This document shows positions 1-12,008 of a stretch of DNA of 12,019 nt, piece after piece. This stretch comes from Methanobacteriota archaeon (GTDB lineage Archaea; Thermoplasmatota; Poseidoniia; MGIII; CG-Epi1): NCBI GenBank assembly GCA_002731905.1, contig PCBV01000010.1, forward strand, positions 1-12,019, given 5' to 3'. Both the position numbers and the translations under genes were made by a program. How positions within the stretch are numbered: the first letter of the stretch is position 1; each line of letters starts with the position of its first letter. The notes beneath the pieces were generated by a model. It saw only the letters and a list, made by a program, of their open reading frames with translations. It was not told the origin of the DNA and made no database searches.

Positions 1-1394
1 ACGAATGTCAGGAGAAGCGCAGCAGCAACAAGTGCCAGTGGCGTTTGAATCTCCGCTTTGTCAAAGGCGTAACTTACCAGACTGTACGGCACCAATGCGA
101 ATGCCATCATCTCGAGGGTAGCGATCGCTGAAATCTTAAAATTCGAGCGGGAAGCCCAGATTGTTCGGCCCTTCGCTTGCTTGAACAGCCAACCGGTGTA
201 AGCACCTGTCATCCATGCAAGGGGGATACCAACGATTGCCAATGACTGGTGGAATGAAGCATCGAGTTCGAGCAACTCAACGCCAATATGTGCGGTTAGT
301 ACTGCCCCGAAAGCACCCAAGATATAGGCCCCTCGAACCAACCAAGACTCCCAATTCGGCCGGAGAAGTACATACAGGAATCGCTCAGGCCGGTCCAGAT
401 CCTTGACCAACAACAAGCCGGTCAATCCCAATAGGACGATGCAAGAGGCGGCTACCCAGATGATAACGCCATTACTGGCTACAAGCACACTGTAATCCAA
501 TAGGACCCCGAGCATGGCGACGATGTAGAAACCGGCCGCCATCGACTTCGTCATGATATAGGCTGAGACCTCCCAGCCCCATAAGATTCCCTTGGAGGGC
601 TGGTCATAGGAGCGCTTTGCCTTGGGTGAGTCGTCGCCGAGCTTCGCCATCACGTCTCGGATGATGGCTTGGTCCCGCGGCTGCGCCTCGCTCGCCTTCT
701 TTTCCAGCGCGAGCTGGACCAGTAGAGAGTCGGTATCAGCCGCACCGAGTCGGTTCTCCGCGTACTTGGCGAAGTGGCCGACGCCGGCGACCTGTTCGCT
801 CCACATGCCGGTCCCGGTGTGCTCGGTGGCAGCTGGGTCGAGCATCTCCTCGCTGGTCTCGATGTAGAAGACGTTTGGCTTGGCCCCTGACTCTGGTTTC
901 CTCACTGTCGTATCGTGTGAGGCCACTAACTGGGCTATCTTGGAGGCCGGGTCGTCAAGGTCGCCCGATACGATAGCTTCGGTGGGGCAGACGATAACGC
1001 AGGCCGGTTCGTAGGCATTCTCCAGACGGTGGACGCAGTAGTTGCACTTCGCTGCGGTCCCCTGGTCGGGGTCGATGTAGAGCGCATCGTAGGGGCATGC
1101 CTGCATGCAAGATCTGCAGCCGATGCAGCGGGCATCGTCGAAATCGACGATGCCGTCCGGGCGTGTAAACAGGGCGGTGGTCGGGCAGATAGTGACGCAG
1201 GGCGCGTCCTCGCAGTGGTTGCAGCGGTGGACGCTGAACTCACGGCTGCTGTCCGGGAAGGTGCCTTTCTCGATGTACTTGACATGGGTGCGGTTGACCC
1301 CGATGGGGATGTCGTGCTCCGACTTGCAGGCAACCGTGCAGGCGTGGCAACCGATACAGGAACGGTTGTCAATGACAAAGCCGTAGTTGGTCAC
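1..1394 (-). CDS. Fused four-[4Fe-4S] ferredoxin / NrfD-type quinone-interacting membrane protein, 3' end off window
   Basis: Manual translation from GTG at 1394 gives 464 residues without a stop, continuing past base 1. Residues 1-145 are a DmsB/PsrB-type ferredoxin with sixteen cysteines in four groups: C13/16/19/23, C58/61/66/70, C90/93/96/100 and C117/120/132/136. Residues 146-265 form a soluble linker. From residue about 275 hydrophobic helices follow, with the NrfD-family stretch DLDRPERFLYVLLRP at 332-346 directly after a helix; about five helices are visible and the rest is cut off. The GTG overlaps the EMO stop by 4 bases (GTGA), with GAGGG about 9 bases upstream, so the two are translationally coupled. 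In PsrABC, TtrABC and SoeABC the ferredoxin and membrane parts are separate subunits that link a molybdopterin catalytic subunit to quinone; here they are one chain. No catalytic subunit is visible. SoeBC-like function in sulfite oxidation is inferred from the neighbours. Confidence 0.88.
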   Translation of the reverse strand, partial: MTNYGFVIDNRSCIGCHACTVACKSEHDIPIGVNRTHVKYIEKGTFPDSSREFSVHRCNHCEDAPCVTICPTTALFTRPDGIVDFDDARCIGCRSCMQACPYDALYIDPDQGTAAKCNYCVHRLENAYEPACVIVCPTEAIVSGDLDDPASKIAQLVASHDTTVRKPESGAKPNVFYIETSEEMLDPAATEHTGTGMWSEQVAGVGHFAKYAENRLGAADTDSLLVQLALEKKASEAQPRDQAIIRDVMAKLGDDSPKAKRSYDQPSKGILWGWEVSAYIMTKSMAAGFYIVAMLGVLLDYSVLVASNGVIIWVAASCIVLLGLTGLLLVKDLDRPERFLYVLLRPNWESWLVRGAYILGAFGAVLTAHIGVELLELDASFHQSLAIVGIPLAWMTGAYTGWLFKQAKGRTIWASRSNFKISAIATLEMMAFALVPYSLVSYAFDKAEIQTPLALVAAALLLTF

Positions 1395-3403
1395 GCGGCA
1401 ACGCCCTCGATTCCCATCGCCGAGTGGACCAGGTCGATGATGTCCTCGACGACAATTTCCTCCTCGTGCCCGCTGGTCTTGGCCGCGTCGGAATACATGG
1501 TCATGTCCTTGGGGCAGGCGACCAGAAAGCGCGAGACCCCGACCGAAAGCGCCTCCTCGATGCGCATCTCCGAAGGGCGCTGCGTCATGTCGTCGTGGTC
1601 GTTGAGCCAGATTTGCCCGCCGCCAGCACCGCAGCAGAACGAGTTTTCGCGGTTGCGCGGCATCTCGACCAGCGCCAGTCCACACCTCTCGATGACCTCT
1701 CGCGGTGCGTCATAGATGCCGTTGTAGCGCCCGAGATAGCAGGGGTCGTGGAAGGTGGCATTGCCCGCCAGCGGCTGCTCCAGCTGAATGGCGCCACCCT
1801 CGATGAGCTCGACCAGCAGCGTCGAGTAGTGTACCACCTCGTATTCGCCACCGAGTGCCGGATACTCGTTCTTGAGCGCGTTGTAGGTGTGTGGGTCGGT
1901 GGTCATGATGCGGTCGAATTCGCACTTCTCGAGCAGCTCGATATTTTGCTCCGCGAGCGACTCGAAGAGTCCTTCCTCGCCCACTCGCCGCACGTCGTTA
2001 CCGGCGCTGCGCTCACCCTTGCGGATGACGCCGAAGTCGACGCCGGCGGCGGTCAGCACTTCGGCCACCTTGCGGGTGGTGGCGGTGCAGGACTGGTTGA
2101 ACGAAGCGAAGTCGCCGACGAACCAGAGCAGGTCGACCGCCTCTTTCCGGGCATCCTTGATGTTGAGCTTCCTTGTCCACTTGCTCCGTCTGCGGTTTGA
2201 CTCGCCGAAGGAGTTGCCCTGCTCGTCCAGGCTGCGCAGCACCTCACCCAGCTCGTCGGGCATTTTGCCGTCGAAAACCAGGCTGCGGCGCAACTCCAGA
2301 ATGTCGTGCATCGGCTCGTTACCGACCGGGCAGATTTGCACGCAGGCGTAGCAGGCGGTGCATGACCAGACTGCATCCGGCGAGATAGCGTATTCTAGCA
2401 TGTTCTGTCGGGCGCCACTCGCCGCCACTTCCGTTGCATGGGCATTGATGTGGTAGCGTTTGTTGATTTCCAGCGCCGACGGCGAGAGTGGCGTACCGCT
2501 TTCGTGTGCGGGGCAGACTTCGTGGCAGCGGGTACACATGATGCAGGCGAACGCGTCGAGTACCTGCGGCCACGGCAGCCCCGCCAGCGTAGTGCTCCCC
2601 GGCTGCGCAGGGTCCTGCACAGCGTCGAGTGCACCGCGTGGCGTCTCGCGGCGCAGCGCCAGGTTCACCGGCGCCACCATCAGGTGGATATGCTTGCTGC
2701 GCGGGAAGTAGGGGATGAATAGCAGGATGAGTCCCAGCGCCAGCCACCATGTGGCGCGAATTGTCTGTTCCAGCAGCCCCGGCTCCATCTCGGTGAATAG
2801 CGGTAGCAATATACTGGCGGTCGGCAACCAGGGGTCGGGACCCCCCGCTTCCGCCAGCTGTAACGCACTGCCGACCCAGCGCGAGCCGACGTGCAGCAGG
2901 ATAAATCCGCCGACGATGAGCGAGTCGCGTCGCACTCCGCCCGCGGCGACGCCGGGGTGCAGCAGCACGTTGGAGTTGAATTCCAGTACCTTTGGCTTCG
3001 TGATAAAGCGGCGGTGCAGGAAGAAGAGCATTCCCACCAGCACGAAGACGCTGAAGAGGTCGGCCAGCAGGTTGAAGCCGTCCGCCAGCGGCCCCTGCCA
3101 GATTGTTTCCCAGTTGGGGACGAACGCTTCCAGCACATCTACCACGTTCACCAGCAGGTAGAAGCTGAATCCGAAGAAGATGAAGGTGTGGAAGATATTC
3201 ACTAGCGGTCGCGCGCTCGCGAGCGGCTTCTGCATTGCCACTTCCAGCAGCGCGCGCGCGAAGCGAGTCGGCAGTTTGTCCGAGCGGTCCGCCGGCTGTC
3301 CCTGCCGCACGGTCGCGAAAATTCGCCGGAAGCCCGGCCACGCCAGCGCCAGGCAGGCGCCCAGCAGCGCTAGGAAAGCCAGCCGGTCAGCGAGTGGGAG
3401 CAG
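1391..3403 (-). CDS. emo: Membrane Fe-S ETF:quinone oxidoreductase (EMO-like; NarI-like membrane domain plus HdrD-like domain)
   Basis: Probably accepts electrons from the adjacent EtfAB and reduces membrane quinone. Numbered from the GTG at 3310 (639 residues): about four membrane helices lie between residues 36 and 200, with histidines such as H41 and H140 that could bind haem. Two ferredoxin motifs follow (C256/259/262/266 and C317/320/323/327), then two CCG-type domains. The second is intact (C524, C559-C560-G561). The first reads GERSAG at 432-437, where a cysteine is expected. The frame stays open upstream to the etfA stop (3424-3422) and encodes another hydrophobic helix (roughly LADRLAFLALLGACLALAW) followed by RRIF, as in the actinobacterial homologues I recall. 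The GTG at 3310 therefore looks internal. The coordinate given is a CTG at 3403, the first near-cognate codon in frame. A better start is ATG at 3425, reachable if one G in 3412-3418 is extra. Confidence 0.85.
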   Translation of the reverse strand: MLPLADRLAFLALLGACLALAWPGFRRIFATVRQGQPADRSDKLPTRFARALLEVAMQKPLASARPLVNIFHTFIFFGFSFYLLVNVVDVLEAFVPNWETIWQGPLADGFNLLADLFSVFVLVGMLFFLHRRFITKPKVLEFNSNVLLHPGVAAGGVRRDSLIVGGFILLHVGSRWVGSALQLAEAGGPDPWLPTASILLPLFTEMEPGLLEQTIRATWWLALGLILLFIPYFPRSKHIHLMVAPVNLALRRETPRGALDAVQDPAQPGSTTLAGLPWPQVLDAFACIMCTRCHEVCPAHESGTPLSPSALEINKRYHINAHATEVAASGARQNMLEYAISPDAVWSCTACYACVQICPVGNEPMHDILELRRSLVFDGKMPDELGEVLRSLDEQGNSFGESNRRRSKWTRKLNIKDARKEAVDLLWFVGDFASFNQSCTATTRKVAEVLTAAGVDFGVIRKGERSAGNDVRRVGEEGLFESLAEQNIELLEKCEFDRIMTTDPHTYNALKNEYPALGGEYEVVHYSTLLVELIEGGAIQLEQPLAGNATFHDPCYLGRYNGIYDAPREVIERCGLALVEMPRNRENSFCCGAGGGQIWLNDHDDMTQRPSEMRIEEALSVGVSRFLVACPKDMTMYSDAAKTSGHEEEIVVEDIIDLVHSAMGIEGVAA

Positions 3404-3421
3404 CGCGGCCGCCCTCCCAGC

Positions 3422-4360
3422 TCATTCCAGCTCCTCAACTAGCTCTTCGCAAACATCGAATAAGTCCTCGGTGAGCCCATAGTGGGCGACGTCGAAGATA
3501 GGCGCGTCCTCGTCGCTGTTGATGGCTATAATCGTCGCCGAATTTTTCATCCCTTCGATGTGCTCCGGTGCACCGGAGATGCCGAGGGCGATGTAGACAC
3601 GTGGCTTGACCTTGAAGCCTGACTTGCCTACTTGCCGCGATTTCTCCATCCATCCAGCGTCGACGATAGGGCGCGAGCAAGCGAGGTCAGCGTCAAGAAG
3701 CTCGGCCAGCTCTGCCACCAGCTCGATGTCATCCTTGCTCCCAATGCCACGGCCAATGGCTACCAGCACTCCCGACTGGGTGATGTCGACATCCCCTGCC
3801 TCGGGCTCGATGAGTCGGTTGAAGCGCACCTTCCCGGCGGACTCCGGAATGGCGAGTTCGTTCACCGCAGGCGATCCAGCAACGCGCCCCGCATCACCGT
3901 CACAACTGCCCGGCAGGACCATCGCCACTGCCGGGCTGGAGACCTGCGAGCTGACACCCAGCTTGCCGCCGTAGAGCGAACTGCTACAGGCGAAGCCCCC
4001 ATTGGTGGCCTCGACAGTAGTGCAGTAGGCGACCAGTGGCAGCCCGTGCGCAGCAGCGACCGGTGCGGCAATATCCATGCCCATTGAGGTCGAGCCGATC
4101 AGGATCAGGTCGGGCGAGTGCGCATCTACCGCCGTGCTGACGGCCGCTGCGTAGCTCTCAGGGTTGTACTCATCCTCACATCCAGCGTCAATGACGCAGG
4201 CGGCACTGCCCAGTTCACTCGCCTTGCCTGCCATGGAGCCAAAGGTGACTGCGCTCACATCGCCCGCCCCAAGGCTGTTGGCGAGCGCGAGCAGCTCGAA
4301 GGTAATATCAGCGAACTCGCCCGAGAGGTGCTCGCAAACGACCAGCACGCCGCTCATCAC
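3422..4360 (-). CDS. etfA: Electron transfer flavoprotein alpha subunit
   Basis: Alpha subunit of the heterodimeric EtfAB flavoprotein, 312 residues, close to the usual family length. The N-terminal domain (1-190) has the Etf alpha/beta fold. The C-terminal FAD domain is clearly conserved at about 226-300: [10 protein letters not shown], then [29 protein letters not shown], then [20 protein letters not shown] (each a known FAD-binding EtfA block). A start at GTG 4360 overlaps the etfB stop by 4 bases; ATG at 4357 (residue 2) overlaps it by 1 base and is equally likely. GAGGG lies upstream. Its place between an HdrCB fusion and an EMO-like gene suggests that it carries sHdr-derived electrons to the membrane, not fatty-acid beta-oxidation electrons. 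Whether the pair can bifurcate electrons is not evident by eye. Confidence 0.95.
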
Positions 4361-5097
4361 GCCACACCCTCACCGCGCAGCACTTCCAGCAGCGCGGCCG
4401 CATCGTCGAGCATCTTCGCACTCGCGCCGACCTCAGGCGGCGCCATCGCGGTTACCTCGCTCTCCGCCCCACCACCGGCACCACCGACCGTCAGCGATTC
4501 GATCGTTGCAGTCTGCTGCATCTGCCGCACCTTGCTGACCGGTGCATAGCGCGGTGGCTGTTGCGCCGATTGGATTCCAAGCACCGCTGGGAGCGTGACC
4601 TCGAACTCGGCCATCACGCCTCCGGAATATTCCTTGTTGACCGTCGCGCCTCCATCGGTGACAGATACGCCAGTGACGACCGAGACGCACGGAAGTCCCA
4701 TTCGCGCCGCTAGCAGTGGTCCTAGCTGCCCTTCGCGGTCGTCAACTGACTGGACGCCGGTCAGGATCAAATCGAAGCTGCTTTCTGCTAGCGCAGCGGC
4801 GAAGGCTGTCGCCTGTTCGCCCGAGCCCCCCGGCTGCACGCCGGTGAGTTGCACTGCACGGCTGGCTCCCTTTGCGAGCGCGGTGAAAAGCAGCTTTTCG
4901 TTTCCCTCACCCTCCAGCGCGAGGGCAACGACCTCGTCTTCCTCGCCACCGAGCAGCAGTGCCTCTTCCAGCGCGTGGTCGTCGAATTCGTTAAGCTTGA
5001 ACTTGAGCTCCTCTGTGTCGAGCGCCTTACCCGTGGAATCAACTTCGAGCTCCTCAACTAGGTCGGGTACCATTTTCAGCAGGACTGCGATTTTCAT
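4357..5097 (-). CDS. etfB: Electron transfer flavoprotein beta subunit
   Basis: Beta subunit of EtfAB, 246 residues, typical of the family. It begins MKIAVLLKMVPD, the standard EtfB N-terminus, at ATG 5097, with AAGGAG 7 bases upstream; the longer reading from 5133 would add twelve residues overlapping the previous gene and is rejected. Residues 119-128 (DDREGQLGPL) match the nucleotide-binding loop. Residues 155-184 carry the EtfB signature (KEYSGG, then VTLPAV, then PPRYAP). A Gly/Ala-rich tail follows (205-246). The gap after the HdrCB fusion is 10 bases, and the stop overlaps the etfA start. It should act as the redox partner of the upstream sHdr complex, with the HdrCB fusion as the probable contact. 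Confidence 0.95.
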   Translation of the reverse strand: MKIAVLLKMVPDLVEELEVDSTGKALDTEELKFKLNEFDDHALEEALLLGGEEDEVVALALEGEGNEKLLFTALAKGASRAVQLTGVQPGGSGEQATAFAAALAESSFDLILTGVQSVDDREGQLGPLLAARMGLPCVSVVTGVSVTDGGATVNKEYSGGVMAEFEVTLPAVLGIQSAQQPPRYAPVSKVRQMQQTATIESLTVGGAGGGAESEVTAMAPPEVGASAKMLDDAAALLEVLRGEGVA

Positions 5098-5108
5098 ATG
5101 TACTCCTT
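5098..5108 (-). promoter_or_regulatory. Ribosome binding site fixing the etfB start
   Basis: AAGGAG on the minus strand is followed by TACAT and ATG at 5097. It supports the start MKIAVLLK over the in-frame start at 5133, which lies inside the HdrCB gene. Confidence 0.75.
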
Positions 5109-6388
5109 CAGTCGTCTCCAAGGCAGCTGTCAAGGATTTCGATTATGTCAAGCACCTCCAGCTTGCCGTCGTTGTCTGTCGATTTGACTGCGTCTTCGAA
5201 GCGGGAGACTTCGTAGGGACAGCAAACGGCCAGCACCTCGGCGCCCACGTCCACCGCCTCGCGCACCCTGTTCTCCGAAAGCCTTTCGAAGGTGTGGTCG
5301 GCGGTCAGTCCGTCGAGCCACATCCCGCCTCCGCCGCCGCCGCAGCAGTAGCCCTGCTCTTTGCAGCGAAACATTTCAACGAAGTCGATGCCGGGGACCG
5401 CTTCGATAAGCGTGCGCGGGGCTTCGTATTCCCCATTATGCCGTCCGAGATAGCAGGGGTCGTGGAAAGTGACCTTGCGCGGGAATTCTCCCGTGAACAT
5501 TCCGGCTAGTTGCTCTGTCTTTTCGGCTAGGAACTGGGTGTAGTGCTGGACATTATATTCCGTCCCAGTCAGTTTTGGATACTCGTTCTTGAAGGCATTG
5601 TAGGCGTGCGGGTCACTGACCACCAGCCGCTCGTGCGGGTTCTGCTCGAACAGTGCGTGGTTATGCTCTGCCAGTTCCTCGAAGAGCCCGGTCTCGCCGC
5701 AGAGCCGTTGTGAATCCCCGTCGCAGCGCTCGTTGCGCCCAAGGACCCCAAAGTCCACGCCCAGCCGGTTGAACACGCGCACCATCGCCTTCGCGGCGTC
5801 AATGCCACGCGGATGGTAGCTGAAATAATCGCTGACGTACCAGAGTACATCCACTTCGCCCGGTTCCTTCGAGAGGTCGCGCACCGGCTCATCGAATTTC
5901 TTCAGCCAGCGCATTCGCTTGCGCGCCGACTCACCCATTGGGTTGCCGTACTCGGCGACGTTCTGTAGCATCTCCTGCAGCTCGCCGGGGACGTTGCCGT
6001 TGAGTATCGCCTGTTCGCGCACGGCAGGCATAATCTGCATCATGTCCACCTCCTTAGGGCAGACCCGCAGGCAGTTGCGACAGGTGGTGCAGAGCCAGAG
6101 GTCGGGGTGGTCGAATAGGTCCAGCCCGATTTGCAGCTTGCGGTAGAGCTTGCGCGGACCATACGAGCCGACATTGTCCACTGGGCAGACGCCAATGCAT
6201 TCAGCACACTCGTAGCACCACCCCATCGACTCGCCGCCAGACAAGTCGGTGACTCTGTCGAGGAAAGTGAAGTCATACTCGGTCACCTCGCGCGGCACCC
6301 ACATCCGGTTCCAGGCACCGGAGACGTCGATGCCATCGATGACTGCGTCATCTTTCTCGACATATTCCTGATAGCGGTGGTCACCCAC
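5108..6388 (-). CDS. Fused HdrC-HdrB iron-sulfur protein (sHdrB3-like)
   Basis: 426 residues from GTG 6388. The start is supported by AGGTGG 6 bases upstream and by the 8-base overlap with the preceding stop; a reading from 6556 adds a low-complexity shadow of the previous gene. The HdrC-like N-terminal half has two ferredoxin motifs, C58/61/64/68 and C100/103/106/110. The HdrB-like C-terminal half has two CCG-type domains: RNERCDGD at 218-225, where the cysteine pair is reduced to one, and an intact C312 ... C348-C349-G350. The HdrB half resembles the EMO protein closely (shared blocks such as DPHxYNAxKNEYP and HDPCYLGRxNGxYxAPR), so the two genes probably share ancestry. No membrane helices are present, so it should be cytoplasmic. 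It sits where separate hdrC2 and hdrB2 genes lie in other sHdr loci and probably hands electrons to EtfAB. Confidence 0.88.
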   Translation of the reverse strand: MGDHRYQEYVEKDDAVIDGIDVSGAWNRMWVPREVTEYDFTFLDRVTDLSGGESMGWCYECAECIGVCPVDNVGSYGPRKLYRKLQIGLDLFDHPDLWLCTTCRNCLRVCPKEVDMMQIMPAVREQAILNGNVPGELQEMLQNVAEYGNPMGESARKRMRWLKKFDEPVRDLSKEPGEVDVLWYVSDYFSYHPRGIDAAKAMVRVFNRLGVDFGVLGRNERCDGDSQRLCGETGLFEELAEHNHALFEQNPHERLVVSDPHAYNAFKNEYPKLTGTEYNVQHYTQFLAEKTEQLAGMFTGEFPRKVTFHDPCYLGRHNGEYEAPRTLIEAVPGIDFVEMFRCKEQGYCCGGGGGGMWLDGLTADHTFERLSENRVREAVDVGAEVLAVCCPYEVSRFEDAVKSTDNDGKLEVLDIIEILDSCLGDD

Positions 6389-7148
6389 TGGCAGCCACCT
6401 CCATCTTGTGCACGCCGAGCACTCGCTCGACAAGCTCAGGGAGTTCAGGCAAGATGCGGTTAAACTCGTCTGAAAGCTTAAGCCGGAAGACAGTGTACAT
6501 GTAGACCGCGTGTACGCAGGCGAGGAGCAGGTTGGTCCCCAGCATCCCGGTGGCATTCCCGGAGATGTTCCGGGCGTGGCCTACCTCGTTCACCTGCAGC
6601 AGAGCGGCGCCGACATTGCAGTACCGTTCCGCGGTGCTTGCGCCTCCGATTTCAACCCCTTCCTGCACGACCATCGGCAGCGCGCCCGAGCCGGTGGCAG
6701 GGTCCCAGACCCAGTTGGTCCAGAGGCAGTACTGGTCGGGGTCATGGAAGTGGAGCAGTTCGCTGGCGAGGTTGATGGCCCGCCGCTCGTCAAGCCGTCC
6801 CTCGAACGCGGTGACGAAGCACTCGAACCGGTCGGCGACGTCGCCTTTGCCGTAGAGCAGCTCCTGCGTTTGTTGGCGGAAGGGCTCGACGCCGACCAGC
6901 CGCAGCAGCTTGCGTGCCTTGCGCCGGATTGAGAAAACGTGGCTCAGCAGCAGGACGAAGTCCGTCTTCGCTAGAGCTGCGAGCCGTCTAGGGGCGAGCA
7001 ACTCTGCGAACAGCTCCTGTTTCGCCTCCAGTCGCTGAGCGATGTTTTCGAGCTCGCGCGAAGTGGCGAGCTTGGTCGCCTCCTTCAGGAATTCTGCCGA
7101 AGATTCGGAGTCGACCACTTCTTGGACGGTCAACGAATCGTAGAGCAT
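6381..7148 (-). CDS. Conserved hypothetical protein of sHdr clusters (HdrH / 'hyp')
   Basis: 255 residues starting at ATG 7148, one base after the hdrA stop. I recognise it by position, length and character as the uncharacterised protein usually found directly after hdrA in sHdr operons; I know of no assigned reaction. The first 110 residues are mainly charged, amphipathic helix. A conserved-looking centre, about 133-168, contains HFHDPDQYCLWTNWVWDP followed by a Gly-rich loop (ATGSG) and VVQEGVEIG. A moderately hydrophobic helix lies at about 202-222. Cysteines C110, C141, C177 and C211 do not form a ferredoxin motif. There is no signal peptide. No strong ribosome binding site is visible, so it may depend on coupling to hdrA. 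The stop overlaps the start of the HdrCB fusion by 8 bases, which implies co-production with the complex. Confidence 0.8.
   Translation of the reverse strand: MLYDSLTVQEVVDSESSAEFLKEATKLATSRELENIAQRLEAKQELFAELLAPRRLAALAKTDFVLLLSHVFSIRRKARKLLRLVGVEPFRQQTQELLYGKGDVADRFECFVTAFEGRLDERRAINLASELLHFHDPDQYCLWTNWVWDPATGSGALPMVVQEGVEIGGASTAERYCNVGAALLQVNEVGHARNISGNATGMLGTNLLLACVHAVYMYTVFRLKLSDEFNRILPELPELVERVLGVHKMEVAASG
6389..6400 (-). promoter_or_regulatory. Ribosome binding site fixing the GTG start of the HdrCB fusion
   Basis: On the minus strand AGGTGG is followed by six bases and GTG at 6388. It lies inside the end of the hyp gene. This site decides between the 426-residue form and the longer form from 6556. 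Confidence 0.7.
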
Positions 7149-7149
7149 G

Positions 7150-8214
7150 TTACCCGACTACCGGCAGCTGGATGCGGCGCACGAACGCGCATGCCTTGAG
7201 CGCTGCGGCGCCCCCCATTGAGATGGAATCCTCGAGGTCGGCCGGTCCCGCGGCTGCACCGGCGACAAAAACCCCGTCAACCGGGGTCTGCACTGTGTTC
7301 AGTGCGCCGCCCACAGTCTCTATCCAGCCGTGGCATTCGAGCGGCAGGTTGAACATTTCGGCCATCGCGATGGTCCCGTCGCTGGGCTCCATCCCGATTG
7401 AGAGGATAACGACATCCATCAGCACCTCCATTGGCCGTCCCATGGTGGTATCCTCGCCCTTGACCATGACCGAGTCCCCCCGCATGGTGACTTCGCTGAC
7501 GATACCGCGGATGAAGGCGACCTTCTCCTCCTCCTGCGCCTTCCAGTAAAGCTGGTCCTCCCAGAAGCCATACATGCGCATATCGATGTAGAATACAATC
7601 ACTTTGCAGTCGGGCAGCAGTTGTCGGATTTCAATCGCCTCCTTGGTGGCGATGCCGCAGCAGACTTTCGAGCACCACTTGTTTCCCAGTTGTCGGTCGC
7701 GGCTGCCGACACACTGGATGAAGCAGACCTGCTTCGGTGGCTCTCCCGTCGACGGTCGGATGAACTTGCCCGCCTTAAGCATCTTCTCGGCATCGACCAG
7801 CGTGATTACGTCGTCATACTCGTAGTAGCCGTAGCGCTGTGTTTCCTTGCCGGGGTCGAAGTGTTTGAACCCGGTGGCGACAACCACGGCGCCGACCTCG
7901 ACCACTTCGGAGCTGTCGCCCTTCACGAGCGTAATTCGCAGGTCGGGGGCGGTTCCCTCGACGGCAGTGATGGTGCTGCCGAGCCGGATGTCCGCGAGCG
8001 AATCGTTAGTGACGGCGTCAACCATGCGCGCCATCGCGGTCTCGGTATCCTCCATGTCGGGCGTCAGCGCCGCGTAGCTCGCCGAGATGGGGGTGCCACC
8101 CAGCTCGTCTCGCTGTTCCACTAGCACCAGCTCGTATCCCAGATCGACAATGCCGCGCGCCGCCTCAAGGCCGGCTGGCCCGCCGCCGATGACCATTATC
8201 CGGTTATTGCTCAT
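7150..8214 (-). CDS. hdrA: sHdrA, FAD-containing subunit of the sulfur-oxidising heterodisulfide-reductase-like complex
   Basis: 354 residues, the short sHdr form of HdrA and about half the size of methanogen HdrA. The N-terminal dinucleotide-binding motif (VIGGGPAGLEAARG, 8-21) begins an FAD-binding Rossmann fold; EQRDELGG (33-40) and VVVATGFKHFDPG (110-122) are further flavoprotein blocks. An HdrA iron-sulfur motif lies at C164, C168, C181, C185, C186 (QCVGSRD ... WCSKVCC). The C-terminal FAD block is GVFVAGAAAGPADLEDS (314-330). Start ATG 8214 has GGAGG 9 bases upstream and overlaps the hdrB1 stop by 11 bases. It is expected to be the flavin core of a cytoplasmic complex oxidising sulfur bound to LbpA. 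The neighbouring lbpA, hyp and dsrE genes argue for the oxidative sHdr system and against methanogenic CoB-CoM heterodisulfide reduction. Confidence 0.94.
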   Translation of the reverse strand: MSNNRIMVIGGGPAGLEAARGIVDLGYELVLVEQRDELGGTPISASYAALTPDMEDTETAMARMVDAVTNDSLADIRLGSTITAVEGTAPDLRITLVKGDSSEVVEVGAVVVATGFKHFDPGKETQRYGYYEYDDVITLVDAEKMLKAGKFIRPSTGEPPKQVCFIQCVGSRDRQLGNKWCSKVCCGIATKEAIEIRQLLPDCKVIVFYIDMRMYGFWEDQLYWKAQEEEKVAFIRGIVSEVTMRGDSVMVKGEDTTMGRPMEVLMDVVILSIGMEPSDGTIAMAEMFNLPLECHGWIETVGGALNTVQTPVDGVFVAGAAAGPADLEDSISMGGAAALKACAFVRRIQLPVVG

Positions 8215-9424
8215 CCAGGCATTCCTCCCAGGTCAGGTACTCTTCTGGATTATCCTTCAGGTGGTCCGCAACCCTCTCGAATTCCTTCCATGCCTTCACG
8301 TGGTCGATACCCATCAGTTCCAGCAGCGGCTTCATGTCGACGCCATGCCAGTGCAGCTGGCAGATTAGGTAGGGGTGCGCCCCCATCGAGAGCGCGGCGA
8401 ACTGTGCGTCGGACATCACTGGGATGCCGACGTTGCGGTTGTGCGCTTGTGTCGAGAACTGGCTCTTGTCGAGCGTCGTGACGCAGCCAGTATCGTGGGT
8501 CAGCGTGACGTCAGGGTCAGCCTCTTCCTTCATGCGCTCAATTTTGCGGATGGTCGCGAACGAGCGTGAGAAGTCTCGGCTCACCAAGATATGCCTGAAA
8601 CCAAATCCGCAGCAGTCGTGCCAAGTCGAGTAGTCGGCCACTGTCGCCCCCAGCGCCTTGACCAGCCCGGAGACGATGGCGGTGCGCTGCCCGTCGTACA
8701 GGTCTCGGTCATAGATGGCGTCCTCGACCACCAATTTGTGGTAGTGGCAGGCGGGGTGGACGGTCGCGGTGATGTCGGAGAAGTCGTAAATCTGTTTTTT
8801 GGCAATATCATCTCGCATCACATGTACCCACTCGGAGTAGTGTACCACCTCCTCTGGGAAGACGAAGGGCAGTCCGAGCCGCTCTAGGATTTGCCGCACT
8901 TGCGCACGCAATTCGGGGTGGTGCAGCAACTCGTTGCGCACTTCTTTGTAATGGCCGTAGCTGGTGCCGCAGTGGATGAGTGGGAAATAGCCGTCCAGCT
9001 TCGCCTGCGCGAAGTTGCGACAGGCGACCGCCGCCTGCGCTGCTGGATTCGAGGTGGATGAGGCGTAGTAGTTCCAGGCAGTGCAGGAAGTCTGGTCGCG
9101 CGGGTCGTGGTAGTCGAGGCCGAACTGGCGATTCAGCCAGAAAATAGCGGTTGAGTAACCGGGAATATGCCCGCACTGCCCGCATGACTTGTGGTGCCAG
9201 GTGTTCTCGATGGGAATTTTTTTCTTACGGCCGTATTTCGTCTCGACCTCGATAAAAGGCTCGGGCACCCGTTGCACCTCCAGCTCGCCTGCTGCCTCCA
9301 GCTCGAACAGCTGTTCCCGGAGGTCCTCGGTCGGCGGCTCCGCTGGCCGCTCGAATCCACGCTCCGACGCTTTGAGGGGGGCGGATTTGTCCGCCATTTC
9401 CAGCTGGACTGGTGCGCTGGTCAT
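8204..9424 (-). CDS. hdrB1: sHdrB1, CCG-domain subunit of the sHdr complex
   Basis: 406 residues with two CCG-type domains. The first has C81, C84, C114, C135 and C152 (SCGQCG, SCTAWNYY, AVACRNF, IHCGTSYGHY). The second has C226, C271-C272-G273, C314 and C355 (HPACHYH, HDCCGFG, TGCVTTLD, ICQLHWHG). In HdrB, such motifs bind unusual non-cubane [4Fe-4S] clusters that handle disulfide chemistry, so this is a likely site of sulfur-substrate oxidation. About 75 charged residues precede the first motif, making it longer than methanogen HdrB (about 290-300 residues). Start ATG 9424 lies 3 bases after the hdrC1 stop, with GGAGG 8 bases upstream. The stop overlaps hdrA. Histidine-rich surroundings of both clusters are visible; their role is unknown. 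Confidence 0.9.
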   Translation of the reverse strand: MTSAPVQLEMADKSAPLKASERGFERPAEPPTEDLREQLFELEAAGELEVQRVPEPFIEVETKYGRKKKIPIENTWHHKSCGQCGHIPGYSTAIFWLNRQFGLDYHDPRDQTSCTAWNYYASSTSNPAAQAAVACRNFAQAKLDGYFPLIHCGTSYGHYKEVRNELLHHPELRAQVRQILERLGLPFVFPEEVVHYSEWVHVMRDDIAKKQIYDFSDITATVHPACHYHKLVVEDAIYDRDLYDGQRTAIVSGLVKALGATVADYSTWHDCCGFGFRHILVSRDFSRSFATIRKIERMKEEADPDVTLTHDTGCVTTLDKSQFSTQAHNRNVGIPVMSDAQFAALSMGAHPYLICQLHWHGVDMKPLLELMGIDHVKAWKEFERVADHLKDNPEEYLTWEECLDEQ

Positions 9425-9427
9425 CCG

Positions 9428-10150
9428 TCAGTCCTCCAGTATATTGTCAAAATCATCGATATCATATCCATGCTCCTCCAGCAATTCCTCCATGACCTCC
9501 TCGAGAATCATGAAGAGCCCTTCATCTATATTCTCAATCATTTCGAGGTTGCCGGTCAGCTTCCAGATCATGTAGAGTTCCAGTCGGGTCTTCTCACTGA
9601 CATCCCATGCCAGCTCGACGGTGTGCATAGTTTCCGGGGGTATCGCCCGGCGCCAGACGTCGAGATTTTCAGCAACGTCGCGTACGTCCTGCCCCCAGTC
9701 CGGGAAGAAATCAGGCTGTAGCATGTCCGGCGAGACCTGGGTGCCGGTAGACATTATCTTGAAGATGATACGAGAATAGGCCTGCAGCGCCTCCTTGGCG
9801 GAGGCGAGTCCGTTGTTCACCGCCACTTCGCGCATGATGGTGATGATGGCTCCGGGGTTGTTCTCACGCGGACAGCAGGTGCAGGAGAAGCACTGCGAGC
9901 AGTCCCAGACTGAATCGTTGAGCAATTCGTAGAAAGTGTGGACATCCTCGCGTGCCATCACCTGTGCGAAGACGCGTGGGCTGAAGTCGTAGAAGCGCGC
10001 CGAGGGGCAGGCGGCGACGCAGATGCCGCACTCGTAGCAGCCATAGAGCGTCTCCGGGTAGCGCATGTCCTGCGTTACCTGATCGAAAAGCGCCTGTTTT
10101 TCCTCGACCAGCACATCCTGGTATCCTGCATCTTTGTAGAGTGCGAACAT
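9428..10150 (-). CDS. hdrC1: sHdrC1, ferredoxin-like subunit of the sHdr complex
   Basis: 240 residues carrying two iron-sulfur motifs in HdrC arrangement. The first is regular, C38/41/44/48 followed by Pro. The second reads CSQCFSCTCCPR (C84, C87, C90, C92, C93), one residue shorter than the normal C-x2-C-x2-C-x3-C-P spacing; I rechecked this against the bases at 9860-9905. The C-terminal half is helical and ends in a very acidic stretch (about 205-240). The protein probably relays electrons between HdrB1 and HdrA in the cytoplasm. Start ATG 10150 follows the lbpA stop by 3 bases, and the stop precedes hdrB1 by 3 bases. The ribosome binding site is weak (GAGGGG about 15 bases upstream), so translation may be coupled to lbpA. 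Confidence 0.92.
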   Translation of the reverse strand: MFALYKDAGYQDVLVEEKQALFDQVTQDMRYPETLYGCYECGICVAACPSARFYDFSPRVFAQVMAREDVHTFYELLNDSVWDCSQCFSCTCCPRENNPGAIITIMREVAVNNGLASAKEALQAYSRIIFKIMSTGTQVSPDMLQPDFFPDWGQDVRDVAENLDVWRRAIPPETMHTVELAWDVSEKTRLELYMIWKLTGNLEMIENIDEGLFMILEEVMEELLEEHGYDIDDFDNILED

Positions 10151-10153
10151 GCG

Positions 10154-10615
10154 TTACTCTTCAAACCCCTCGCAGTGGATGCAGCTCGCCAGGTCCTTTT
10201 CCTGCATGTAGGCCTCGTAGAGCGTACTTGCCTCCTCGACGCCGACCAGCGTTGCTCGGTCTCCCTCCATGTCGGCTGGTGTGATGCGCACAATCCAGCC
10301 CTCCCCGTAGGGGCTGCGGTTCAGGATGGTAGCGTCGTTGACCACTGCGTCGTTGCGCTCGGTGATATTGCCGGCGAAGGGCGAGCGCACCGGGCCGACC
10401 CATTTCCCGCTCTCGACTGTAGCTACGCTCTTGCCTTTCTTGACTTTCTTGCCCACCTTCTTGGGGCGGCAGTGTATGATCGAACCTGCCAGCGTCTGTG
10501 CGATATCAGTCATCCCGATTTCGACCATGCCGTCATCCAGTTCCCGCACCCAGATGTTGGTCGGCACGTCGTAGAGCAGGTCTGACGGCAGCAGACAGTT
10601 CCGAACTAGCGCCAT
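10154..10615 (-). CDS. lbpA: Lipoate-binding protein of the sHdr pathway (GcvH-like)
   Basis: 153 residues related to glycine-cleavage H protein. The lipoyl-attachment region is ESGKWVGPVRSPFAG (68-82), making K71 the predicted lipoylated lysine, followed by the GcvH-type block NRSPYGEGWIVRI (99-111). No glycine-cleavage genes are nearby, and the gene directly precedes hdrC1. Both facts fit LbpA, which carries sulfur intermediates for the sHdr complex, and argue against a true H protein. A basic patch (KKVGKKVKKGK, 52-62) precedes the lipoyl hairpin. The C-terminus adds CIHC (C145, C148) within SCIHCEGFEE, which I do not expect in GcvH. The ATG at 10615 overlaps the dsrE-like stop by one base (TGATG). 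No lipoate ligase or lipoyl synthase is encoded in the window. Confidence 0.92.
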   Translation of the reverse strand: MALVRNCLLPSDLLYDVPTNIWVRELDDGMVEIGMTDIAQTLAGSIIHCRPKKVGKKVKKGKSVATVESGKWVGPVRSPFAGNITERNDAVVNDATILNRSPYGEGWIVRITPADMEGDRATLVGVEEASTLYEAYMQEKDLASCIHCEGFEE

Positions 10616-10992
10616 CAGTAAGTCAGCACCATGTTGCTTTCTAGGCCTGCCTCGGTCATGTAGGCCGCACCCACCACATCGTTACATTCCTCAATGAGGT
10701 CTTCTTTGGTCATGCCGTGCAACGCTAGCGAGGCGGAGCAGACATACATCTCTACTCCCATCTCTTTCGCATCACGGATGAAATCGATAATCTTCTTCCC
10801 CCCTTCCCGGGCATCCAGGTTCTCGGCAACTCCCTTCTTCATCAGCAGGGTGCCATCAATCTGAAACACCATCCGCGCCTCGCTGTCCATAGCTGCCGCC
10901 ATGGTCGCCATGTAGAATGGCGTCGCGCAGCGCTGCGGCGTGGTGGGGCCAGTGGTCATGAATATTGTTACACTGCCTTCGTCGTCGTCCAT
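10615..10992 (-). CDS. DsrE-family sulfurtransferase
   Basis: 125 residues with the small DsrE/F alpha/beta fold. The N-terminus has VTIFMTTGPTTPQRCATPFYMA (8-29), followed by an amphipathic helix and a hydrophobic strand. The probable persulfide-carrying cysteine is C85 in VEMYVCSASLALHG (80-93), the position of the active cysteine in DsrE/TusD-type proteins; C22 and C103 are further cysteines. It is expected to move sulfane sulfur towards LbpA/sHdr in the cytoplasm. Start ATG 10992 has AAGGAAAA immediately upstream and lies 24 bases from the arsR stop. The stop overlaps lbpA by one base. The subtype (DsrE, or one of the DsrE3 groups often found with sHdr) cannot be fixed by eye. No tusA or rhodanese gene is present in the window. 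Confidence 0.85.
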   Translation of the reverse strand: MDDDEGSVTIFMTTGPTTPQRCATPFYMATMAAAMDSEARMVFQIDGTLLMKKGVAENLDAREGGKKIIDFIRDAKEMGVEMYVCSASLALHGMTKEDLIEECNDVVGAAYMTEAGLESNMVLTY

Positions 10993-11016
10993 TTTTCCTT
11001 GCGTGGTAATTCCCTT

Positions 11017-11382
11017 TCAGGAATGAATTCGTTCCTCCCCGGTTTCCTGATTCACAACGCCGAAGTCGAAATCCCATTCCCCGGAATCCAGCTTCTCTTG
11101 GACCTCAGCCATGCAATCCAGAATCTTGATGATGAAATTGTTTGCCAGTGAGTAGTAGTACCGGGTCCCCTCCTGTCGGAAGGTGACAATATCCCGTTCA
11201 TAGAGTACTTTGAGGTGCTGGCTGGTCACCGGCTGGAGCAGGTCGAATTCCCGTTGGATCTGCCCCACGGTCCTTTCCCCATGTTCGAGGAGTTCGACAA
11301 TCTTCAATCGGTCGGGATGGCCAAGGGTCTTTAGGATACGGGCAGCAGTCTGGATGAATTCAGTCGAAATTGTGGCTGCCAT
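11017..11382 (-). CDS. ArsR-family winged-helix transcriptional regulator (sHdrR-like position)
   Basis: 121 residues. The winged helix-turn-helix spans about 16-79: LGHPDRLKIVELLEHGERTVGQI, then the recognition helix around QPVTSQHLKVLYERDIV, then the wing RQEGTRYYYSL. The C-terminal helix ends in an acidic tail. It is the first gene of the tightly packed run and probably controls it, as the ArsR-type sHdrR does in Hyphomicrobium. The metal-site motif ELCVCDL of classical ArsR is absent. Only one cysteine (C90) exists, so the two-cysteine sulfide/persulfide sensor of BigR, SqrR and sHdrR is missing; the signal is unknown. ATG 11382 has no ribosome binding site, while TATA-like sequences lie upstream, suggesting a short-leader transcript. 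The nearby repeats may be its operators. Confidence 0.92.
   Translation of the reverse strand: MAATISTEFIQTAARILKTLGHPDRLKIVELLEHGERTVGQIQREFDLLQPVTSQHLKVLYERDIVTFRQEGTRYYYSLANNFIIKILDCMAEVQEKLDSGEWDFDFGVVNQETGEERIHS
11019..11036. repeat. 18-base near-perfect palindrome at the arsR/dsrE junction
   Basis: AGGAATGAATTCGTTCCT is self-complementary except for one mismatched base pair (11024 with 11031). It covers the last codons of arsR and lies 27-44 bases upstream of the dsrE-like ATG. With no loop it would make a poor RNA hairpin, so a dimeric DNA-binding protein such as the adjacent ArsR regulator is a more natural reader. It could also be a chance feature of the coding sequence. Confidence 0.4.
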
Positions 11383-11404
11383 AGTTCACTGGTTAATCTT
11401 CGGC

Positions 11405-11453
11405 CGGCCACTATATAGAAAAACCTGTATATAATGTAATCTGTATATTTAAG
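11405..11453 (-). promoter_or_regulatory. Probable promoter and operator region of the arsR-sHdr operon
   Basis: This AT-rich island lies in a GC-rich window upstream of arsR. Read on the minus strand, TTAAATATA (11453-11445) resembles an archaeal TATA box, and a second element, the palindrome CTATATAG (11418-11411), is centred 32 bases before the arsR ATG, about right for a short-leader archaeal transcript. ATATACAG occurs twice (11448-11441 and 11432-11425), exactly 16 bases apart. Such repeats beside an autoregulated ArsR gene are candidate binding sites. No bacterial -35 element is evident. Promoter function is inferred; the repeats are directly visible. Confidence 0.5.
11425..11448. repeat. 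Two direct copies of CTGTATAT, 16-base period
   Basis: CTGTATAT is found at 11425-11432 and again at 11441-11448 on the plus strand, with an 8-base spacer. The centre-to-centre distance of 16 bases is about one and a half helical turns. The repeats overlap the presumed arsR promoter, so a protein bound here could block transcription start. An operator role is inferred only from position. Confidence 0.6.
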
Positions 11454-11492
11454 GCATCCGCAGTTTCCGTACCGTGTAATTTGCTGTCAGGC

Positions 11493-12008
11493 TCAGACGA
11501 ATAGCTGGATGTCTGCGTCCGCCGCGAATTCGAGGAATGTCGCTGCACCGCCGATATCGACGCCGTCGATAAAATCGTCTTTCTTGAAGCCGAAGACGTC
11601 CATTGTCATCTGACAGCCTATCAGCTTCACGCCGCTTTCGAGGCAGATGTCGCGCAGCTCTTCAACGGTTGCGACGCCCTTGTTCTTGAAAGTTTTCTTC
11701 ATCAGCGAAGTGGCGACTGTCTCGAAGCCGGGGACATTTCCGCTCACGATGTTGGGGATAGGCCAGCTGAGGTTCTGGAACCCCTCCGGGCCGAAAGGCA
11801 TCTTCATCGGCATCGCGGGGTTGCCCGCCGGCGAAACGCTCGCCTTGATTTTCTTCTTCAGCAACGTCAGCCCGTAGAATGTGAAGAAGACTGCCACTTC
11901 CATCTCCATCGCCACCGCGGTCGAGGCAAGGATAAAGGGAGGATAGGCCCAGTCTAGCGTTCCTTTGGAGGCAATCAACGCCATACGCTTGGTTCCGTTT
12001 TCACCCAT
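11493..12008 (-). CDS. DsrE2-like (DsrE/F/H superfamily) sulfur-carrier protein
   Basis: 171 residues. The N-terminal part reads ALIASKGTLDWAYPPFILAS (10-29) followed by a hydrophobic segment ending VAVFFTFYGLTLL (38-50). The C-terminal part has GVKLIGCQMTMDVFGFKKDD (126-145) and GVDIGGAATFLEF (149-161), blocks typical of DsrE2-type proteins. C132 is the likely sulfur-binding cysteine; C122 is a second. A mobile Met/Pro/Gly-rich stretch at 58-90 separates the two halves. DsrE2 proteins are commonly linked to sulfur-oxidation loci as sulfur donors. The ATG at 12008 lies 11 bases from the window edge with a purine-rich lead (GAGAAAAAA); an internal Met at residue 9 is an alternative start, and upstream extension cannot be excluded. 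A 110-base gap separates it from arsR, so it may be a separate transcript. Confidence 0.88.
   Translation of the reverse strand: MGENGTKRMALIASKGTLDWAYPPFILASTAVAMEMEVAVFFTFYGLTLLKKKIKASVSPAGNPAMPMKMPFGPEGFQNLSWPIPNIVSGNVPGFETVATSLMKKTFKNKGVATVEELRDICLESGVKLIGCQMTMDVFGFKKDDFIDGVDIGGAATFLEFAADADIQLFV

Follow-up and report, generated by a model that had tools for sequence, protein, structure and literature searches.

A probable type II sHdr sulfur-oxidation operon in Poseidoniia archaea sharing its gene run with a putative sulfite:quinone oxidoreductase

Type II sHdr clusters have been described as hdr cluster II of Sulfobacillus (PMC4378227), as Group III (PMC6067878), in Thermomicrobium roseum (trd_0160-0142, PMC6776052) and in PMC11582611, and in the excerpts of these publications (all our citations draw on excerpts) they share sHdrC1B1AH, a fused B3 subunit, EtfAB, a long CCG protein with membrane helices, DsrE and TusA proteins, LbpA and a lipoate ligase. 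Here we describe such a locus in a stretch of 12,019 nt (the window; contig PCBV01000010.1 of assembly GCA_002731905.1) from a small-genome archaeon of the marine plankton, which we infer to belong to the class Poseidoniia. An earlier note on the window had placed it in type II, and the locus indeed contains shdrC1B1AHB3 together with etfAB in one cluster, as in the published definition (PMC11582611). The locus differs from the described type II clusters in its Poseidoniia host, in the presence of an NrfD fusion gene and a molybdopterin oxidoreductase (MoOR) gene in the same run, and in an HdrB1 clade of its own beside Marinimicrobia and SAR324. In addition, each archaeal locus encodes one LbpA, compared with two or three in Group III (PMC6067878). 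We consider it likely that the window carries a type II operon for sulfane-sulfur oxidation, encoded in the same gene run as a cytoplasm-facing, Soe-like sulfite:quinone oxidoreductase.

The 13 genes of the window all lie on the minus strand and follow the order given in the earlier note, with families that agree in NCBIfam and Pfam scans (Table 1). Their description as nearly all overlapping was too strong, since five of the 12 junctions overlap (by 1–29 nt), six are gaps of 0–24 nt and the dsrE2–arsR junction spans 110 nt, the HdrH–HdrB3 and EtfA–EMO values hinging on unsettled start codons. Overall, 11 of the 12 junctions overlap or are at most 24 nt apart, and the genes would be predicted to form a single transcript. 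Base 1 of the window is the end of its contig (C10), and a second contig (C12) overlaps it and continues the run with the rest of the NrfD gene, a 930-residue MoOR, LipS2-like and LipS1-like radical SAM proteins, an lplA lipoate ligase with DUF116, and a geranylgeranyl-reductase-like flavoprotein. The molybdopterin oxidoreductase that had been predicted to the left of base 1 is thereby present, carrying the Pfam Molybdopterin, Fe4S4 and dinucleotide-binding domains; the EMO and NrfD fusion genes overlap by 4 nt and the MoOR gene starts 9 nt after the latter. Because the identity between C10 and C12, which is 95.7–100% per 300 bases over window positions 1–3300, then falls to 87% and 80%, the two contigs are taken as strain variants covering the same place and not as a demonstrated join. 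A duplicate operon was considered on account of a second match at 98% and rejected, the match being the overlapping contig end, 80–87% identical past base 3300 and attributed to a strain variant. The comparison of gene order proposed in the earlier note revealed the complete order from TusA to the flavoprotein on one contig, in stretches free of N, in a genome of the same genus (G003, 97% complete).

As in known sHdr systems, TusA and the DsrE proteins would hand sulfane sulfur to lipoylated LbpA, where sHdrC1B1AHB3 would oxidise it to sulfite, with the electrons passing through EtfAB to EMO and into the quinone pool. MoOR would oxidise the sulfite to sulfate, its electrons reaching NrfD via the four-cluster domain and then the quinone pool that EMO also feeds. 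A second quinone-reducing module besides Etf–EMO had been anticipated and was found in the NrfD fusion with the adjoining MoOR, and sulfite, then proposed as the second substrate, is supported as a candidate on genomic grounds by the slot and co-occurrence comparisons described below. In the G003 orthologue, the fused Fe–S domain (Fer4_11) has 16 Cys within residues 1–136, and the protein combines the four-[4Fe-4S] part and the NrfD anchor of SoeABC; the NrfD domain was scanned on the complete C12 copy (L005 7857-9314). LbpA is a GcvH-domain protein with a lysine in the motif ESGKWVG, which we take to be the lipoyl site, and dedicated lipoate assembly genes accompany it, such that LipS1/S2 would make its cofactor together with the ligase and the flavoprotein. 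In NCBIfam, LipS1 and LipS2 are the top matches but stay below cut-off (208 of 230 and 205 of 270 bits), and the lipoyl-ligase domain is located further downstream. The sHdrH gene is found in 59 of 60 sHdr loci compared, the contig of the 60th (L059) stopping directly after HdrA.

The main ground for reading the NrfD–MoOR pair as a sulfite:quinone oxidoreductase is that two unrelated sulfite makers alternate before it, sHdr and persulfide dioxygenase each yielding cytoplasmic sulfite. Among 27 MoOR loci compared, 17 belong to one family of sister archaea (f3), the other ten (f1, f2) being arranged differently or cut. In 16 of the 17, a TraB gene beside FolP is followed by a slot and then by NrfD–MoOR, mostly with a TauE or thiolase gene thereafter. 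The slot is empty in 11 loci (G038, G329, G333, G335, G320, G047, G313, G240, G260, G259 and G332), contains ArsR–TusA–DsrE2 and a rhodanese–metallo-beta-lactamase (MBL) fusion in G252 and G239 as well as in G235, where DsrE2 is reduced to a remnant, and is occupied by the sHdr–Etf–EMO block in G249 and G327, the latter adding lipoate genes there. In the 17th locus (G042), the dioxygenase genes are present but arranged differently. Between G249 and G252, which belong to one genus, FolP (88%), TraB (90%), ArsR (87%), NrfD (97%), MoOR (95%) and thiolase (97%) are highly identical, with lower values for TusA (59%), DsrE2 (79%) and TauE (72%). Because the flanks are 87–97% identical and TusA and DsrE2 only 59% and 79%, the exchanged piece, as judged from these identities, begins after ArsR and stops before NrfD.

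The rhodanese–MBL protein is encoded in 20 of 339 Poseidoniia genomes (E 1e-40), and in 16 of them it lies 1.4–1.5 kb from MoOR, which is the length of the NrfD gene; none of these 16 has HdrB1. The remaining genomes comprise G116 and G046, with no MoOR match, G191, with the two on separate contigs, and G207, the one genome that overlaps with HdrB1, where the match is a 38% identical relative on another contig. Of ten sHdr-free MoOR loci retrieved, five have the dioxygenase set and five do not, and all five archaeal slot proteins scanned contain both rhodanese and MBL domains. A gene of the TauE sulfite-exporter family adjoins MoOR in 13 of the 27 loci, two of these being confirmed by Pfam.

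MoOR itself is more widespread than sHdr, with matches in 83 of the 339 genomes (E 1e-60), including all six with HdrB1, and the trees suggest that NrfD–MoOR in f2 and f3 has a history other than that of sHdr. The f2/f3 MoOR tree tracks relatedness, G249 pairing with G252 of its genus (100/99) and G207 with G195 of f2 (95/96), and G327 falling among f3 rows. A constraint grouping the six sHdr-linked MoOR rows is rejected (p-AU 1e-81), and so is one grouping G207, G249 and G327 (p-AU 0.0002), although the HdrB1 proteins of these three form a starred clade (97/94); the constraint-tested tree has 31 hand-picked rows, 28 from Poseidoniia and three bacterial, and its G207 row is a 551-residue fragment. 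Within the window's own family, MoOR occurs solely in the three sHdr genomes (3/21), where it may have arrived with the block or been retained only there. In a quick-method tree (67 of 77 rows, excluding those under 480 residues and duplicates), these rows branch beside all remaining archaeal MoOR rows.

Within Poseidoniia, MoOR is present in 6/6 HdrB1-positive and 77/333 HdrB1-negative genomes (Fisher p 0.00019; 0.0008 minus the window's own genome), these p values and those that follow being a guide only, as the rows are related, cut-offs differ (E 1e-60 or 1e-100) and gaps in metagenome-assembled genomes (MAGs) are ignored. A sample of 246 genomes from the phylum of Gordonia rhizosphera (G376) gives 4/4 against 27/242 (HdrB1 in 4, MoOR in 31; p 0.0002), and 3/3 (p 0.0017) when G376, picked for having the locus, is left out. 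A third Fisher test (42/50 against 27/242) mixes phyla and cut-offs and was not used. Among 50 genomes that carry type II sHdr loci, 42 have MoOR, the set being obtained from 56 loci minus L043, L059, L077, L082, L085 and L087, without L061, and with L030, L031 and L084 counted as archaeal. In Gordonia, Paraconexibacter and Amycolatopsis, sHdr and MoOR are close to each other, and in an Acidobacteria MAG MoOR comes immediately after EMO in convergent orientation. Two further MAGs, one from Acidimicrobiia and one from Marinimicrobia, carry NrfD–MoOR as a same-strand pair downstream of sHdr, the pair of the latter lying about 11 kb beyond EMO.

These figures and arrangements also bear on the idea that the sHdr block is independent, its sulfite being exported as in Hyphomicrobium, and that NrfD–MoOR serves an unrelated oxidation. 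Hyphomicrobium excretes sulfite (PMC10332631, PMC12423496), and 77 of the 339 Poseidoniia genomes have MoOR without HdrB1. The tight EMO–NrfD–MoOR junctions, the same-strand arrangement in the two bacterial contigs and the co-occurrence figures all speak against it, as does the result that no TauE gene was seen in the stretches around the operons of the window and G003, and we regard such an uncoupled pathway as very improbable. Elsewhere, the pair is grouped with ArsR, rhodanese–MBL, DsrE and TusA on pRHL3 of Rhodococcus jostii RHA1, and on the T. roseum megaplasmid (L110 6093-10844) it follows a metal-sensitive regulator, presumably CsoR-like, with no sHdr gene within the 18.8 kb inspected around it. 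One haloarchaeal plasmid region has the pair with no annotated sulfur-oxidation gene within 8 kb. We also note an Mrp/NBP35 ATPase gene after NrfD–MoOR both in a Natrinema plasmid (L112 7974-12165) and in pRHL3 (L111 7935-11968).

The MoOR proteins have features expected of a Mo-bisPGD catalytic subunit of the SoeABC kind, namely the Pfam domains named above and an N-terminal Fe–S motif in 71 of 72 rows. A Cys is aligned to position 173 of the Thermus chain 2vpw, which we take to be the Mo ligand, in 69 of 72 rows (duplicates included), two of the others having X and one a gap. No twin-Arg motif is seen in the window organism's own MoOR (which starts MVVKRSII) or within residues 1–45 of the extracted rows, which are possibly clipped. 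A molybdenum cofactor gene (PF06463, MoaA-type) is found in G003, G004, G249 and G327, that is, in 2/3 sHdr-positive against 2/18 other genomes of the window's family and in 2/3 sHdr-positive genomes of f2/f3. These features are consistent with a functional Soe-type enzyme facing the cytoplasm, but taken alone they also leave room for a Psr/Phs-like enzyme.

A different role for NrfD–MoOR has been proposed in print, in that a molybdopterin oxidoreductase, a 4Fe-4S ferredoxin and a TraB/PrgY-like gene of Marine Group II were read as possible dimethyl sulfoxide (DMSO) respiration (PMC6741140); from the published excerpt, we infer that these are the same genes as the NrfD–MoOR and TraB genes here. 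That the pair is a DMSO, polysulfide or thiosulfate reductase for anaerobic respiration, merely located beside sHdr genes, nonetheless seems unlikely. The family scores of the intact G003 protein, with which the NCBIfam scan of the N-containing C12 copy was repeated, are highest for PhsA (193 bits, cut-off 694) and DmsA/YnfE (169 bits, cut-off 778), and among solved structures the best match is the PsrA chain of Thermus, which carries the label thiosulfate reductase; some genomes also have NrfD–MoOR without adjacent sulfur genes. Yet neither curated cut-off is reached, and the linkage to two different sulfite-forming gene sets and to TauE genes disfavours a respiratory reductase. DmsA has Ser at the Mo-ligand position, unlike the Cys seen here, although this carries no weight against a Psr/Phs-like enzyme. 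Together with the lack of a twin-Arg motif, the Cys and the low DmsA score depart from DmsABC. Thus, mainly on the slot exchange, NrfD–MoOR is most likely a Soe-like sulfite:quinone oxidoreductase rather than the DMSO reductase of the literature.

A number of observations weigh against this assignment and against its coupling to a type II block, among them the family scores below cut-off, the PsrA match and the lack of a TauE gene near the operons of the window and G003, as given above. The dioxygenase assignment is domain-based, NCBIfam returning no more than a weak match to glyoxalase II. MoOR may be no older than the block in the window's family, the cofactor gene was not found in the window's genome (G000, 75% complete) or in G207 (71%), and MoOR matches were not found in eight of the 50 type II genomes, many of which are MAGs. 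HdrB1 lies among etf-linked sHdr rows, in a tree that holds no type I cluster and whose sole row outside type II is a distant, long-branch plasmid protein. Finally, MoOR is present in 77 Poseidoniia genomes that lack HdrB1 and 11 f3 slots are empty, and the enzyme would therefore serve something else, or another sulfite source, as well. With these points considered, we lean, by a modest degree, towards a modular locus in which a sulfite:quinone oxidoreductase receives, in its upstream slot, either an O2-using persulfide dioxygenase set or an electron-conserving sHdr–Etf–EMO block of bacterial origin, the window's genus having the fullest form with lipoate genes in the run, and in which the Marine Group II "DMSO respiration" genes stand for sulfite oxidation.

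The host of the block is archaeal. The 16S rRNA of the window's genome matches the archaeal small-subunit model end to end (1497 bits, best of its clan), that of G003 is archaeal too, and the 144-kb contig with the G003 operon also encodes archaeal GatE, FlaI and the small subunit of DNA polymerase II. Assignment to Poseidoniia follows from class-level kinship with G207, taken as a member of Poseidoniaceae (phylum Thermoplasmatota), and from homologues named Poseidoniales; Marine Group III is a guess for the window's own family. HdrB1 was found in six of the 339 Poseidoniia genomes (E 1e-100), the window's genus accounting for three, f2 for one and f3 for two. In a tree of 59 of the 73 extracted rows (those under 330 residues or from duplicate loci excluded), the six form one starred clade (100/98) beside seven rows from Marinimicrobia, SAR324 and Deltaproteobacteria (common fork 98/91), nested among bacterial rows. 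An Acidithiobacillus ferrooxidans plasmid HdrB1 was rejected as an sHdr member, its gene lying outside any sHdr cluster, and was kept solely as a distant outgroup. Because the six archaeal proteins form one clade beside Marinimicrobia/SAR324 rows, a bacterial source of the block is likely, and the pattern is best accounted for by a single transfer out of a marine bacterium with later patchy spread or loss, with the direction taken from the nesting and the root from the distant outgroup only.

The position of HdrB1 inside a bacterial tree, in a 75% complete genome of 53 contigs, could alternatively reflect binning, with the contig of a bacterial sulfur oxidiser placed in an archaeal bin. Such an artefact is hardly credible given the 16S rRNAs, the shared clade of six archaeal genomes and the neighbours common to G252 between which the G249 block sits; bacterial contamination was rejected on the archaeal 16S of both genomes and the archaeal genes of the G003 operon contig.

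Table 1. Features of the window
Feature	Position	Strand	Basis
DsrE2 sulfur carrier	11493..12008	-	NCBIfam SulfCarrDsrE2 218 bits (cut-off 210)
dsrE2–arsR gap, 110 nt, candidate promoter and ArsR operator	11383..11492	-	TATA-like CTTAAATA at 11446-11453; putative function
ArsR-family repressor, single Cys	11017..11382	-	NCBIfam HTH_metalloreg 77 bits (cut-off 55)
Second DsrE-type carrier, labelled DsrE3 here (label only, subtype putative)	10615..10992	-	PF02635 E 1.9e-16
LbpA, lipoate-binding GcvH-like carrier	10154..10615	-	PF01597 E 3.5e-35; below GcvH NCBIfam cut-offs
sHdrC1, two-cluster Fe–S protein	9428..10150	-	Family scans; Cys 38, 41, 44, 48 and 84, 87, 90, 92, 93
sHdrB1, CCG-domain subunit, proposed catalytic	8204..9424	-	PF02754; HdrB1 tree
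sHdrA, Fe–S flavoprotein	7150..8214	-	HdrA models matched over part of model length
sHdrH	6381..7148	-	No Pfam or NCBIfam family
sHdrB3 (HdrC2–HdrB2 fusion), start codon unsettled	5108..6409	-	Fer4 and CCG domains
EtfB	4357..5097	-	PF01012 E 2.1e-23
EtfA	3422..4360	-	PF00766 E 8.9e-32, PF01012
EMO, ETF:menaquinone oxidoreductase-like	1391..3421	-	N-terminal membrane part, Fer4, CCG; hydropathy; start unsettled (3310 GTG possible)
Four-[4Fe-4S] ferredoxin and NrfD membrane anchor fusion (SoeB–SoeC-like)	3..1394	-	PF13247 E 3.8e-23, PF03916 E 1.2e-9 on L005 copy; truncated by contig end

Upstream of the window genes lies tusA (L006 12030-12284), directly preceded on three contigs of the genus by tRNA-Asn and tRNA-Met genes (L006 12405-12570; L027 1656-1841; L030 6855-7020), a possible integration site. 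The EMO label rests on the architecture of the protein and is our assumption, as no NCBIfam model carries that name in the scan; EMO-like proteins are common in these archaea, being encoded in 50 of 60 relatives (E 1e-60), mostly at 31–37% identity. The EMO frame is open back to the EtfA stop, yet has no ATG, GTG or TTG before base 3310. Window positions 3311-3421 encode a hydrophobic stretch, and the same stretch is open in G003 and G004.

The TATA-like pattern YTTAWATA has one match in the window against 0.13 expected, with at least one match in 22 of 200 shuffles. A search for inverted repeats around the operon start at default lengths found none; read by eye, TATATAC-(8)-GTATATA precedes arsR in G003 and is imperfect in the window. 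The operon shares an ArsR-family gene within it with that of Hyphomicrobium, whose sHdrR has two sensing Cys, in contrast to the single Cys of the window protein (PMC12423496). Many shdr-linked ArsR proteins are without the two Cys in that account (PMC12423496). Against the BigR model the window ArsR scores 56 bits (cut-off 155), and it departs from the two-Cys sulfane-sulfur sensors of the sHdrR/BigR kind. Since it is 84% identical to a Marinimicrobia ArsR (L075), it probably arrived with the sHdr block, unlike the ArsR of G249, which resembles that of G252 (87%).

Poseidoniia are among the commonest planktonic archaea and are regarded as heterotrophs. If correct, a near-complete route from sulfane sulfur to sulfate would add lithotrophic electrons to their metabolism, and the locus would amount to a natural exchange experiment in which one oxidoreductase stands behind an oxygenase or behind sHdr. 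It would also bear on the fate of the electrons and sulfite of type II sHdr systems, and suggests that the DMSO-respiration annotation of Marine Group II be re-read. In the open-licence literature, we found neither a report of sHdr from Poseidoniia or Marine Group III nor one of MoOR–NrfD within a type II sHdr locus, although supplementary tables of sHdr surveys may hold such genomes.

Persulfide dioxygenase uses O2 directly and passes no electrons to quinone; unlike it, sHdr–Etf–EMO should deliver electrons to quinone. Rhodanese/persulfide dioxygenase systems, such as that of Beggiatoa, convert cytoplasmic sulfane sulfur to sulfite, and such genes fill the same slot in the sister archaea; SoeABC was not detected in the Beggiatoa proteome, according to the excerpt (PMC11507549). 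The NrfD–MoOR pair resembles SoeABC of Allochromatium and Aquifex, judged here by domains, in its Mo-bisPGD-type catalytic subunit, four-[4Fe-4S] part and NrfD-type anchor, but differs in that the B and C parts are fused in one chain (PMC8076601). The holders of SoeC named in the excerpted part of that work are Proteobacteria, Clostridia and Aquificae, with no archaea among them (PMC8076601). A 2024 publication (PMC11323534) names Sulfolobaceae as the sole archaea with a known capacity to oxidise elemental sulfur. They share an archaeal host, sHdr and LbpA with the locus described here. Their sHdr genes are, however, scattered (PMC6067878), whereas those of the window's operon form one run with EtfAB–EMO, of type II.

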